NCBI GenBank assembly: GCA_016928995.1
Contig: JAFGJS010000064.1
Location: forward strand, 1-5,741
Origin: Candidatus Sumerlaeota bacterium
Lineage (GTDB): Bacteria; Sumerlaeota; Sumerlaeia; JAFGJS01
DNA: 5,741 nt
Direction: 5' to 3'
Below, piece by piece: positions 185-5,377 of this stretch. Each line of letters starts with the position of its first letter. Position 1 is the first letter of the stretch. The notes beneath the pieces are model-generated. The model had not been told where the DNA came from. It was given only the letters and a program-made list of their open reading frames with translations, and did not search any database. A program made the position numbers and the translations under genes.

Positions 185-598
185 ATGGGCAATCCAGTGA
201 AGGTGCTGGCGGTTGACGACGAAAAAGACGTGCTGTTCATCGTATCGGCGGCGCTCAAGGCCGAAGGCTACAGCGTGGCCACGGCCTCAAACGGTTTCGA
301 GGCGCTGGAGCAAGCCTCCAAGGAGTGTCCCGACATTATCGTGCTGGATGTGATGATGCCCAAGATGGACGGCTTTGAGACGCTGGTGAAATTGCGCGAA
401 ATGGACGCGACGCGCAACGTCCCAGTGGTGATGCTGACCGGACTTTCCGAACGCGATAAAAAACTCGACGCGATCGATCACGGCGTGCAGCACTACATCG
501 TCAAGCCCTTTGAGGTGCACGACCTGATCGCCAAGCTGCAAAACGCCCTGGCTGAATCCAAACGCGCGGAAGAAGAATTGCCGGATTTCGACGAATAA
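185..598 (+). CDS. CheY-like single-domain response regulator
   Basis: The 137-residue protein is a lone receiver domain with no DNA-binding or enzymatic output domain. It would be phosphorylated by a histidine kinase and would act through protein-protein contact or as a phosphorelay intermediate in the cytoplasm. Visible receiver hallmarks are the acidic pair D11-D12, the phospho-acceptor D55 in IIVLDVMMPKMDG, T85 in VVMLTG, and K107 in the VKPF motif. The last 14 residues form a charged, Glu-rich tail beyond the domain. The reading frame is open upstream to an ATG at 32, but the ATG at 185 is preferred. It has GGAG at 175-178 with a 6-base spacer, the receiver fold starts right after it (VKVLAVDDE), and a TTGACA promoter lies between the two ATGs. 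No kinase gene is nearby, so the partner cannot be named. The next gene is 243 bases away and probably not in the same operon. Confidence 0.9.
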   Translation: MGNPVKVLAVDDEKDVLFIVSAALKAEGYSVATASNGFEALEQASKECPDIIVLDVMMPKMDGFETLVKLREMDATRNVPVVMLTGLSERDKKLDAIDHGVQHYIVKPFEVHDLIAKLQNALAESKRAEEELPDFDE

Positions 599-2181: not shown

Positions 2182-4050
2182 TTACTGCGGCTCCGCAGGA
2201 GTATTTTCCACACGATGCAATGCATCGTCCAAACGCAATCCCAACGCATCTTGCGGATTGCGCGCCAGCAGATCGTCCGCGGATCGCCGCACGAGATCGA
2301 AGCGCCTCAAGGCGTAAAAAACATTCGCCCGGCGGTAGACGTAAGTGGAATACGTCAGCCATGCCTCTTCCGACGCCGCTTGTTCCGGATCCAGCACGAG
2401 AAAACGCTGCAACTCGTCCGGCGGGATGATCCGTTCACTCAGATTCTGTCTTTCCAGGCTCGCGGTCCGCATCCAAACCGTCGCATACGGTCCGATGTGG
2501 ATCATCGCCCAATCCTCCCGGTCCGCCAGGATGCGCATCAGCGCCGCATAACTCCAGGGCACGACCGCGCCATCAATAGGATATTGCGCTTCGAAACGCT
2601 CCAGCGCGGCCGCATCGCCGCGAAAAATCGCCGCCAATGCCTGCGAAAGCGGCGGCGGAAACGGCGCGGTGCGTCCATCTTCGGCCACCTTGATCTTCGG
2701 CCAGCAATTCCAGATCAAATAATCCCCGTCGTCCCAGGGATTCAGAAAATTGCCCTCGATCCCCGCCTCGCGCAGCATCCGCGCCGCCGAAACCGGAAGT
2801 TCGCTGGTGATCACGCCGCCGCCGAAACGCCGCAGTTCCTTCTGCCAATGGTAGTACCGGTTGGAGCCTACGGCCCATAATAAAATCAAGAGCGCGCAAA
2901 CCGTAAAACCCGCGAACAAATTCATCTGCCTATCACGCGACCGGTAAAACTCGCGCGCGCTCCAGCCATTTTCCATGGCGGCGAAAATCGAGATCAACGC
3001 CATCGGCGCAACGAAGCGCAAGGAACGCAAGCTCAGCGCGCAAAAAAACAGGAACAGCGCCAGCCGCGCCAAAGATAAGGACTTCCGGGAGATGACAAAC
3101 GTGGCCGCCGTCGCTCCGGCAAGAGCGAGCCAGGCGAACCAGGTCAGCGGCGCGGCATAGCGCCAAAGCGCCTGCCATTCGATCGAGACTGGACGCAATC
3201 CCACCAGCTGCGCCTCTTGATAGATGCCAAGCAGCAATTCCCAGCCGAATGGATTCATCAGACAACATAGCGCCATCAGGGCGAATCCACCGCATTGCCG
3301 TGCCGCATAATGACCCCATCGCTCAACGCCACGCTCGCTCCAAAGTCCTTCCGCTACATATGCCGCGGCGATCAGCAAACCCCAGAAAAATTCGCCATGC
3401 AGGTTGACCCAGGCGATTTGAAGCAGCCATAGCGGCGACCAGGCGCTCCAGAAAGCTCGCTCCGGCTGCTTGAGCCTCTCCCCTAATCGCAAACACGGCG
3501 CATAAAGCCAGTAACCCAGCCAGTAGCCGCGCGGCCCCATGCGCAGTTCCAGCAAAATCAACGCCGGGAGTGAAAGAACGATCAGCAACGCGATGGGCTG
3601 ACGCCGGATTGAAAAACCTGTCGCGAGCAAGCAGCCGAAAATCAGGACGAAACGCAGCAATTCAATGCCGTTCCAGCCCAGCATGCGATAAAGTCCATAC
3701 GCCAGGCATTCGAAAAACCAGTATTTATCCAGATAAGGTTCGCCGGCGATGGTGAAGGTGAACAAATCCGATGAGATCAAGCGCCTATGTTCAAGTATCC
3801 ATTGCCCATGCGCCAATTGCCACCAGATATCATACGGCACAAAAGCATGCCAGCACATCGCGGCAGCACATAAGAACAATATAATAATCCAAAGCAGCGC
3901 CAAAAAACGCGAGCATCGTCCAAAAGACAAAAGAAACGGCCGTTGACCGGCGTCAATTGCTGTATTCCCCGCATGATTCGGTTCAGGCATGAGTTGATGT
4001 AAACCTTGATTCATTCGCTGCTTACAGCATGAGCATCTCGGATGATCCAT
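2182..4050 (-). CDS. Polytopic GT-C-like membrane protein with TPR-like C-terminus
   Basis: The 622-residue integral membrane protein has about ten hydrophobic segments between residues 47 and 395, then a soluble C-terminal part. The first segment (about 47-69) is followed by YDIWWQLAHGQWIL (73-86) and then SSDLFTFT, with an acidic residue in the first loop as in GT-C glycosyltransferases. Further family-like motifs are WVNLHGEF (214-221), MNPFGWE (265-271) and SLRFVAP (343-349). The soluble part contains NPWDDGDYLIW (437-447) and EDGRT (457-461). Residues 562-607 (YRRANVFYALRRFDLV...NPQDALGL) resemble one TPR unit. I infer transfer from a lipid-linked sugar donor to an envelope substrate, but neither donor nor acceptor is visible. 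The start is uncertain: no good Shine-Dalgarno precedes Met1 (4050), Met13 (4014) or Met21 (3990). The Cys-rich first 12 residues (CSCCK) look unlike the rest, so an internal start is likely. The gene is transcribed away from the pilins. Confidence 0.8.
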   Translation of the reverse strand: MDHPRCSCCKQRMNQGLHQLMPEPNHAGNTAIDAGQRPFLLSFGRCSRFLALLWIIILFLCAAAMCWHAFVPYDIWWQLAHGQWILEHRRLISSDLFTFTIAGEPYLDKYWFFECLAYGLYRMLGWNGIELLRFVLIFGCLLATGFSIRRQPIALLIVLSLPALILLELRMGPRGYWLGYWLYAPCLRLGERLKQPERAFWSAWSPLWLLQIAWVNLHGEFFWGLLIAAAYVAEGLWSERGVERWGHYAARQCGGFALMALCCLMNPFGWELLLGIYQEAQLVGLRPVSIEWQALWRYAAPLTWFAWLALAGATAATFVISRKSLSLARLALFLFFCALSLRSLRFVAPMALISIFAAMENGWSAREFYRSRDRQMNLFAGFTVCALLILLWAVGSNRYYHWQKELRRFGGGVITSELPVSAARMLREAGIEGNFLNPWDDGDYLIWNCWPKIKVAEDGRTAPFPPPLSQALAAIFRGDAAALERFEAQYPIDGAVVPWSYAALMRILADREDWAMIHIGPYATVWMRTASLERQNLSERIIPPDELQRFLVLDPEQAASEEAWLTYSTYVYRRANVFYALRRFDLVRRSADDLLARNPQDALGLRLDDALHRVENTPAEPQ

Positions 4051-4072
4051 TCAAGTAAATACTGCTACACTA

Positions 4073-4097
4073 CGATTCGAGCGGAATCGAGGATTCG
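4073..4097. promoter_or_regulatory. Cluster of GATTC/GAATC inverted half-sites upstream of the membrane protein gene
   Basis: CGATTC (4073-4078) and GAATCG (4084-4089) form a perfect 6-bp inverted repeat around GAGCG. GAATC (4084-4088) pairs again with GATTC (4092-4096) around GAG. The cluster lies 22 to 47 bases upstream of the most distal possible start of the minus-strand gene, where a regulator could act. No matching regulator is known to me, so operator function is an inference. Confidence 0.3.
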
Positions 4098-4154
4098 AAA
4101 CCGCCCTGAGCGCCGAATGGCCGTGAACGAACCATCCAAGTTTGGGTAAATTCG

Positions 4155-4182
4155 GTTACACCTCGCGTGTAACGCATTACAC
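4155..4182. promoter_or_regulatory. Candidate enhancer (UAS) for a sigma54 activator upstream of pilin 1
   Basis: GTTACAC (4155-4161) and GTGTAAC (4167-4173) form a perfect 7-bp inverted repeat around CTCGC. A third half-site, TTACAC, follows at 4177-4182. The centres of the three half-sites are 11 and 10 bases apart, about one helical turn each. The cluster lies about 200 bases upstream of the predicted transcription start of pilin 1, within the usual range for bacterial enhancer-binding protein sites. Binding by a PilR/NtrC-class activator is inferred from position and symmetry. It could also serve the divergent gene. Confidence 0.5.
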
Positions 4183-4269
4183 ACCGTCCAGATTTCGGAC
4201 AGATCATTTTATGGAATTATTCAGCGCCGACGTCCCGCAGCTATCTTAAATCGATTCCAACATTTTTAA

Positions 4270-4282
4270 TATCAATGCTTTA
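4270..4282 (+). promoter_or_regulatory. IHF-type binding site
   Basis: TATCAATGCTTTA matches the consensus WATCAANNNNTTR at every defined position. It sits in an AT-rich stretch between the palindromic cluster and the sigma54-type promoter, centred about 83 bases before the predicted start. This is where IHF commonly bends DNA so that a distant activator can touch sigma54 polymerase. Whether this organism has IHF or another bending protein of the HU family is unknown. Confidence 0.5.
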
Positions 4283-4332
4283 TATAAGTAGGGCTGATAT
4301 ATCCCGAAGGTCTCTGGGTTCATGACTGCGTG

Positions 4333-4348
4333 TGGCACACAAGTTGCT
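4333..4348 (+). promoter_or_regulatory. Sigma54 (RpoN) promoter of pilin 1
   Basis: TGGCACACAAGTTGCT fits the -24/-12 consensus TGGCAC-N5-TTGCW. The invariant GG (4334-4335) and GC (4346-4347) are separated by exactly ten bases. The predicted transcription start is near A4359, giving a leader of about 68 bases before the pilin ATG at 4427. Sigma54 control of the major pilin gene is well known in Pseudomonas, Geobacter and Myxococcus. The full match in the correct orientation makes a chance hit unlikely. Confidence 0.8.
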
Positions 4349-4426
4349 GACTGTCCATACAATAGAAAAAGCCTAACAAGGCAAAAAGTCAAAACCACAC
4401 AACCAACATCCATTTGGAGGTGCATT

Positions 4427-4792
4427 ATGCAAAAGTACCGCGTTAAGGGCTTCACCCTCGTGGAAATCATGATCGTCGTGGCGATCATCGGCATTATCAT
4501 CGCGATCGCGATCCCAAGCTTCATTCGTGCTCGTGAAACCAGCCGTGGCCGCGCTTGCCAGGAAAACCTGTCCAAGATCGACGGCGCCAAGGAACAGTAC
4601 GCGCTGGATCACAACCTGGGCGAAGGCGATACGATCACGGGCGACATGGCCACGCTGGTCGGTCCGACGAATTACATCAAATCCACACCGACGTGTCCCG
4701 CTGGCGGCACCTACACCGTGAATGCAGTGAGCACCGATCCGGTGTGCGACTACACCGCGCCGACTTGGGCTCCGCAACACGTGTTGCAGTAA
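4427..4792 (+). CDS. Type IV prepilin-like protein (pilin 1, canonical N-terminus)
   Basis: The 121-residue precursor has a short basic leader, MQKYRVKG, ending in Gly8. Prepilin peptidase would cut before Phe9 and N-methylate it. The mature protein of 113 residues begins FTLVEIMIVVAIIG with Glu5 needed for assembly, Gly14 and Pro22, all canonical for type IV pilins and pseudopilins. After the helix come RGRACQENLSKIDGAKEQYALDH, then TCPAGGTYTVN with Cys90 and Cys107 (precursor numbering) able to form a C-terminal disulfide loop, and the ending WAPQHVLQ. It would be assembled into a pilus or pseudopilus at the inner membrane. The start at 4427 is chosen over the open frame to 4322 because GGAGG (4416-4420) lies 6 bases upstream and the leader is then of normal length. 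A sigma54-type promoter, an IHF-type site and a possible enhancer precede it. A strong terminator follows, so it is probably monocistronic. Major pilin versus type II secretion pseudopilin is not decided. Confidence 0.9.
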   Translation: MQKYRVKGFTLVEIMIVVAIIGIIIAIAIPSFIRARETSRGRACQENLSKIDGAKEQYALDHNLGEGDTITGDMATLVGPTNYIKSTPTCPAGGTYTVNAVSTDPVCDYTAPTWAPQHVLQ

Positions 4793-4877
4793 CTGAAAAA
4801 AGTGCGCACTACACCGGCGCCGGCCTGATTCGCCTAACAAAAGATGATGCGCTGGCGTGAGGGGGGAAGCGTGAGAG

Positions 4878-4924
4878 GGGCGGCAAAACTAAGCAAAAAG
4901 CCGGGTTTTGCCGCCCTTTTCTTT
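4878..4924 (+). terminator. Rho-independent terminator after pilin 1
   Basis: GGGCGGCAAAAC (4878-4889) pairs perfectly over 12 bp with GTTTTGCCGCCC (4905-4916) across a 15-base loop. TTTTCTTT (4917-4924) follows directly. It lies 85 bases after the stop of pilin 1 and 54 bases before pilin 2, so it should separate most transcription of the two genes. There is no T-tract on the opposite strand, so it is directional. Confidence 0.88.
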
Positions 4925-4978: not shown

Positions 4979-5377
4979 ATGAAAGCTTTGAATTCGGCAA
5001 TCAACAATTTGCGTCCATGCAATAAGGGCTTTACCATGATTGAGATCATGGTCGTCGTCGCGATTATCAGCATCGTCATCGCCATCGCCCATCAAACCTG
5101 GTTGAGACAACGCGAATTTGCCCGCGCCCGCGCATGCCAGGAAAACCTGGCCAAGATCGACGGCGCCAAAGAGCAATACGCATTGGATCATAAACTCGGC
5201 GACGGCGAACCAGTTGGCTCGGGAGCATTAGAGGATCTAACCAGCGGAGATGCGCCGTATCTCAGACACGGACCGACGTGTTCCGCAGGCGGATCATATA
5301 CCGTGAATGTTATCGGTCAAAACCCGGCTTGCTCCTATGAAGGACGCGAATGGGCGCCTCAACATGTACTGCAATGA
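4979..5377 (+). CDS. Type IV prepilin-like protein (pilin 2, atypical helix)
   Basis: The 132-residue precursor has a longer leader of 17 residues ending in NKG, then the mature start FTMIEIMVVVAIIS with Glu5 present. The mature form has 115 residues. It is a clear paralogue of pilin 1: in mature residues 32-59, 24 of 28 positions are identical (RACQENL.KIDGAKEQYALDH.LG.G), both have TCxAGGxYTVN and a second Cys, and both end WAPQHVLQ. Differences fall in the helix: Gly14 is Ser, Ile21 is His and the usual Pro22 is Gln (AHQTW in place of AIPSF). This puts polar residues where the helix normally kinks. The start is supported by GGGGAG (4967-4972), 6 bases before ATG. No sigma54 promoter precedes it, so expression may depend on terminator read-through or a weak own promoter. 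It could be a minor or initiating pilin, a pseudopilin, or a degenerating duplicate. Confidence 0.85.
   Translation: MKALNSAINNLRPCNKGFTMIEIMVVVAIISIVIAIAHQTWLRQREFARARACQENLAKIDGAKEQYALDHKLGDGEPVGSGALEDLTSGDAPYLRHGPTCSAGGSYTVNVIGQNPACSYEGREWAPQHVLQ

Follow-up and report, generated by a model that had tools for sequence, protein, structure and literature searches.

A predicted sigma54 control region with tandem activator dyads upstream of the main type IV-type pilin gene of Candidatus Sumerlaeota

Results

Analysis of the DNA upstream of a tandem pilin pair in a Candidatus Sumerlaeota genome revealed two activator dyads, an IHF-like site and a sigma54 -24/-12 promoter, and it is highly likely that these elements, with a candidate activator and a candidate kinase encoded elsewhere in the genome, form one circuit that controls the main pilin, a protein of type IV type. 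In 26 of 39 class genomes, an orthologous pilin had both elements: the sigma54 promoter lay 57-115 bp ahead of the ATG and the dyad 101-181 bp farther upstream. The promoter, the dyads, their conservation, and the orthology and pilin linkage of the activator were established by sequence comparison. An enhancer-dependent sigma54 promoter of a type IV-type pilin gene, as proposed in a first-pass annotation of this DNA, was supported by the presence of rpoN, about 20 sigma54 activator genes, an activator orthologue, and conservation of the GG and GC elements.

The pilin locus

The window, that is, the whole stretch of 5,741 nucleotides that was analysed, was the entire contig C107 of a 4.55-Mb genome (G000). 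A PVC-type organism had been proposed from the pilin C-termini; the organism is instead a Candidatus Sumerlaeota bacterium and lies outside PVC, as NCBI taxonomy files this phylum under the candidate phyla and outside PVC. The features of the control region and its genes were as follows.

4144-4161, forward strand: distal activator dyad GGGTAA-N6-TTACAC, weaker and imperfectly spaced; the second-best dyad in relatives
4155-4173, forward strand: 7-5-7 palindrome of the first-pass annotation, the junction of the two dyads by alignment with relatives
4166-4183, forward strand: proximal activator dyad with the core GTGTAA-N4-TTACAC (4167-4182), unique in the genome and conserved in relatives
4270-4282, forward strand: IHF-like site TATCAATGCTTTA, a probable DNA bend, 9/9 to the consensus WATCAANNNNTTR
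4333-4348, forward strand: sigma54 -24/-12 promoter TGGCAC-ACAAG-TTGCT (TGGCACACAAGTTGCT) with GG-N10-GC, the sole exact match in the genome
4427-4792, forward strand: first pilin gene, the promoter's putative target, 121 aa, with a prepilin N-terminal motif and Pfam N_methyl
4873-4921, forward strand: terminator-like hairpin between both pilin genes, -33.4 kcal/mol, z -5.8, T-rich on the 3' side
4979-5377, forward strand: second tandem pilin gene, 132 aa, Pfam N_methyl

The ATG of the first pilin at 4427 was preceded by GGAGGT, and orthologues of this pilin were found throughout the class. The two tandem pilins shared 60% identity. Because the strong hairpin separates the two genes, the first pilin is probably the main gene served by the promoter. 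Many PilB/PilT-type ATPases were encoded in the genome.

Other genes of the window were also inspected. Encoded divergently from the pilin (2182-4050, reverse strand) was a membrane protein of 622 aa that matched no Pfam or NCBIfam model. A stand-alone response-regulator receiver gene (185-598, forward strand), followed by a PIN-PhoH gene, gave no sign of a tie to the pilin circuit. Additionally, pilin-like sequence was found within larger proteins. A protein of about 515-525 aa with a weak DUF3352 match was encoded on contig C25 of the same genome (L122:5999-7573, reverse strand), and its C-terminal segment was 65% identical to the window pilin, without the leader motif. Comparable C-terminal pilin-core segments of larger proteins (L143, L144, L159, L166, L168, L176, L192, L197, L205, L212, and L214) spanned Sumerlaeota, Kiritimatiellae, Lentisphaerae, and Verrucomicrobia.

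The sigma54 promoter

The -24/-12 promoter that had been read as TGGCAC-N5-TTGCT with GG-N10-GC upstream of the pilin was confirmed at 4333-4348 and was unique in the genome: pattern searches, from which all genome-wide motif counts were taken, found TGGCAC-N5-TTGCW once in the whole 4.55 Mb, and the relaxed TGGCAY-N5-TTGCW six times versus four for a reversed-pattern control. The predicted transcription start was A4359; at promoters of this type, the start is expected about 12 bp downstream of the GC. The sigma54 gene rpoN, which the first-pass annotation had suggested looking for, was found on contig C31 (PF04552, E 7.6e-62).

To assess conservation, a simple matrix for -24/-12 sites, with weights set by hand, was applied to the region upstream of the pilin that matched best in each genome of a set of 30, the window's own among them. 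A score of at least 11.5 was reached by 18 of the 30 regions, versus 2.2% of background 250-bp stretches, and the sites clustered 57-114 bp before the pilin ATG. Several apparent failures arose because a different pilin from the same genome had been scored; the pilins that adjoined the activator gene in G006, G009, G016, and G034 did have the promoter. The GG and GC elements were conserved in the orthologous pilin promoters of most relatives.

Tandem activator dyads

The 7-5-7 palindrome reported earlier was composed of GTTACAC (4155-4161), a spacer (4162-4166), and GTGTAAC (4167-4173), with an extra half-site TTACAC at 4177-4182. Its sequence and place were real, but comparison with relatives showed that the phase and the number of dyads had been misread. 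The conserved unit in the aligned pilin upstream regions was TGKGTAA-N4-TTACMCA, and the palindrome spans the junction between the distal and proximal dyads, pairing the right half of the former with the left half of the latter. The centre of the distal dyad was located 22 bp upstream of that of the proximal dyad, which in turn lay 158 bp before the -24 element. The tandem dyads were therefore placed in the range of about 100-200 bp upstream of the promoter, as the enhancer (UAS) of a bEBP requires, and this placement was conserved.

A first look at 24 sigma54 pilin promoters found the dyad in 23, most with a shuffle p of 0.002, the minimum of the test; the dyad scores used hand-set weights and the relatives were phylogenetically non-independent. 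The dyad centre in these 23 was 102-171 bp upstream of -24, and three more genomes had the dyad at 160, 172, and 181 bp when the first pilin of the tandem was used. The invariant positions were G, G, and A in the left half and T, C, and C in the right half. A second, weaker dyad was present 21-24 bp farther out in about 18 of the 23 relatives.

The dyad was also rare. In the window's genome, GKGTAA-N4-TTACMC had a single exact occurrence; when one mismatch was allowed, the count was three, versus 35 for a control pattern, and the other two one-mismatch dyads (contigs C6 and C83) had no sigma54 site downstream. Across the 39 class genomes, the exact core appeared at most twice per genome, and wherever it was followed within 260 bp by a -24/-12 site scoring at least 11, the downstream gene was always a pilin. 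At lower scores, a -24/-12 site of 10.2 after an exact core in G024 also preceded a pilin, and one of 10.9 on contig C282 of G035 had no pilin downstream. Exact dyads near genes of FHA-type appearance in G002 and G011 had no promoter. Because the exact core with a -24/-12 site nearly always preceded a pilin, the dyad looks, from its sequence distribution, like an operator that serves little more than one target.

In long sequences, words of such length that fit a consensus do turn up by chance, and the elements might in principle be such matches, with the pilin transcribed from a sigma70-type promoter. This explanation is very improbable: the promoter and the dyad were each unique in the genome, their position and sequence were conserved in many families of the class, and a simple scan found no sigma70-like promoter between 4000 and 4427.

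Two further ideas about the dyads were not retained. Helical phasing of the dyad-promoter distances was striking in five clusters (p about 0.006) with a moderate per-genome signal (R about 0.6); it was blurred by the three later genomes at 160, 172, and 181 bp and is not claimed. An analogy to a ZraR-type GAGTAA half-site found no support in the literature searched.

A separate observation was made at locus L121 of an incomplete genome (G033). The pilin there, at minus-strand offset 9299, had a consensus -24/-12 promoter; the palindrome that lay about 77 bp upstream was of another sequence, TGTGTA-CAGG-TATACACA, and an activator orthologue was not found in this genome. The L121 palindrome may show activator and operator changing together.

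The IHF-like site

The first-pass annotation had also reported an exact IHF match between enhancer and promoter. The match was exact in the window, with a chance probability of about 0.007 for such a word within the 148-bp spacer, but only a mild positional preference was seen in relatives. The mean best match to the consensus was 7.26 in relatives versus 6.83 in shuffles, and the best IHF-like words gathered 48-68 bp before -24 to a degree that none of 300 permuted versions of the consensus reached. Three proteins of the HU/IHF family were encoded in the genome, and their best NCBIfam models were IHF-alpha, IHF-beta, and HU-beta (one each). For the IHF subunits, a search for which had been suggested, the genome offered as candidates the two HU-family proteins that scored best to IHF-alpha or IHF-beta, but none of the three passed the NCBIfam cut-offs.

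These data are weakly suggestive of an IHF site at 4270-4282. It is also quite plausible, if short of probable, that the promoter works without IHF, with an AT-rich stretch that is intrinsically flexible or with the help of an HU-type protein, and this would be compatible with the rest of the main explanation. The weak consensus in relatives and the sub-threshold scores of all HU-family proteins favor such an arrangement, whereas the exact 9/9 site in the window, the positional preference that exceeded all 300 permuted controls, and the best matches of one protein to IHF-alpha and another to IHF-beta speak for IHF.

Candidate activator and kinase

Candidates for the regulators were located on two other contigs of the same genome.

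About C80:59598-60998, reverse strand: candidate activator gene, receiver-AAA+-Fis-HTH
C73:81164-82669: candidate kinase gene, orthologue of the pilin-linked kinase, 320 bits (next best 113)

By its domains (Pfam PF00072, PF00158, and PF02954), the C80 protein is an NtrC-type activator, and a GAFTGA loop was present in its sequence. Its gene had orthologues directly adjoining the pilin in nine genomes, which belonged to several families (G002, G003, G006, G007, G009, G016, G021, G030, and G034). For the five linked activators first compared, the best match in the window's genome was always the C80 protein, with 49-54% identity, and the next-best full-length activators had about 40-46%. In a tree with the activators of this genome, the C80 orthologues formed one clade with a support of 1.000, and the recognition helix LLGISRKSLHNKM was shared by the C80 protein and most orthologues. 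The best NCBIfam matches of the C80 protein were AtoC and NtrC, all below cut-off. A search for a PilR-like activator had been suggested; the candidate is the receiver-AAA+-Fis-HTH protein on C80, an orthologue of the pilin-linked activators, for which no NCBIfam equivalog cut-off was reached that would give it the name PilR.

Matching of the HTH revealed activator orthologues in 31 of the 39 class genomes, and outside the class none were found above weak scores. A hand tally of the 39 genomes gave 25 with both the activator and a dyad-bearing pilin promoter, 6 with the activator only, 1 with the dyad only, and 7 with neither; the Fisher p of 0.0007 is indicative only because assembly completeness feeds the empty cells and because the genomes share ancestry. 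The dyad-only genome was G035, an incomplete assembly with no clear activator orthologue. Among the six activator-only genomes, G034 had a strong -24/-12 site and a dyad score of only 8.4, and the others included fragmented assemblies.

In the window's genome, neither the activator nor the kinase was near the pilin. This lack of linkage, the roughly 20 activator genes, and the dyad of G035 without a clear orthologue could be explained if the sigma54 promoter were real and the dyads were bound by another of these activators, or by a repressor or co-regulator, instead of the C80 protein. Such a regulator is unlikely, since only the C80 protein was orthologous to the pilin-adjacent activators of the nine relatives, within the single fully supported clade, and the presence of its orthologues tracked the dyad across genomes. 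Taken on orthology and co-occurrence, the C80 protein very probably switches on the main pilin through the dyads.

The clusters of G002 and G003 also encoded a histidine kinase with HAMP, PAS, HisKA, and HATPase domains, and a TPR-containing membrane-type protein lay between kinase and activator. It is only a guess that these TPR-containing proteins, or the 622-aa membrane protein of the window, are tied to pilin modification. The linked kinase and its C73 orthologue had two predicted TM helices each. The C73 gene adjoined neither the pilin nor the activator and lay outside any pilus operon; a PilB-type ATPase and prepilin-like genes were located a few kb away. The sensor PilS has six TM helices, and the half-site known for PilR is of a TGTC type, different from the Sumerlaeota half-site. 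Unlike PilS, the candidate kinase had two TM helices with HAMP and PAS, and it was not a six-TM sensor kinase beside the activator.

In the proposed circuit, a membrane histidine kinase (candidate C73) would phosphorylate an NtrC-kind response regulator (candidate C80), which would bind both tandem dyads at 4144-4183 and form a hexamer with AAA+ ATPase activity on them. Looping of the DNA that separates dyads and promoter, with a bend at 4270-4282 that an IHF/HU-type protein probably imposes, would let the activator remodel the sigma54 RNA polymerase waiting at 4333-4348. Transcription would begin near 4359, read the first pilin, and mostly end at the hairpin before the second pilin.

Pilin promoters beyond the phylum

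Pilin relatives in Armatimonadota had no dyad and, with the isolated exception of L195, no strong -24/-12 site. Seven pilin loci, mostly from Verrucomicrobiota (L171, L178, L186, L189, L190, L201, and L217), lacked the GTAA-N4-TTAC dyad and carried a -24/-12-like site whose distance upstream of the ATG varied rather little (117-131 bp). At L216, from Lentisphaerae, a complete receiver-AAA+-HTH activator gene (3322-4700) was located directly upstream of a pilin near 4912; this pilin had a -24/-12 promoter without the Sumerlaeota dyad, and the recognition helix of the activator differed, which makes L216 an independent case within PVC. Sigma54 control of pilins in PVC bacteria, which had been suggested for the window, was in part supported by these loci, several from Verrucomicrobiota and one from Lentisphaerae, that have their own sigma54 promoters, but not by the window, whose organism is outside PVC.

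Discussion

The type of sigma54 switch described here is already known from Proteobacteria, and the phylum is new. The operator appears to be new as well; we know of no described operator of the sequence GTGTAA-N4-TTACAC. The literature search found no paper on pilus regulation in Sumerlaeota, and cross-phylum sigma54 papers mention pili in general terms (PMC3162934, PMC12316311).

In Geobacter sulfurreducens, the RpoN-dependent pilA has pilR as its immediate upstream neighbour (PMC2725144, citing Juarez et al. 2009). The PilR-RpoN-pilA system described there resembles the present one in its two-component AAA+ activator, in the -24/-12 promoter of the pilin, and in the activator gene directly next to the pilin, as in nine Sumerlaeota genomes. 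It differs in phylum and in that the activator gene of the window's genome is unlinked; the likeness was judged from parts and gene order. In commensal Neisseria, pilE is under the control of Nps/Npa, IHF, and RpoN and is the only one of the tested pilus genes to be so; the IHF site lies between the activator site and the promoter (PMC6528607). The order of parts is the same in the window, with dyads, an IHF-like site, and -24/-12, and the regulator likewise would act on the pilin gene and not on other pilus genes, as judged here from motif uniqueness; the phyla are unrelated, and the roles of IHF and activator were assigned by mutants in Neisseria, whereas they are inferred here (PMC6528607). 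The PilS/PilR-pilA system of Pseudomonas aeruginosa also combines a receiver-AAA+-Fis-HTH activator with sigma54 at the pilin gene (PMC6058289). DVU2114 of Desulfovibrio vulgaris is a sigma54 response regulator with a motif upstream of pilin genes that is conserved in a few relatives; unlike in Sumerlaeota, its targets are a Tad/Flp-type pilin and assembly operon (PMC3333781).

The idea that sigma54-pilin logic extends to a little-studied group was supported in that promoter and dyad were conserved across the Sumerlaeota class, but the group is not PVC. We suggest, tentatively, that Sumerlaeota and parts of PVC may each have evolved or kept a sigma54 activator of the main pilin whose operator changed along with it, and that sigma54-pilin control may be ancient or repeatedly evolved, well outside Proteobacteria. 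Together with the Verrucomicrobiota and Lentisphaerae cases, the findings support the view that control of the cell exterior is a general role of sigma54 (PMC3162934). For a candidate phylum, they provide a complete, testable circuit of kinase, activator, operator, promoter, and target, with an activator-operator pair in which recognition helix and half-site are both conserved. If the proposal is true, the Sumerlaeota activator would regulate almost a single target throughout the class and would have a recognition code of its own, in which LLGISRKSLHNKM reads GKGTAA.
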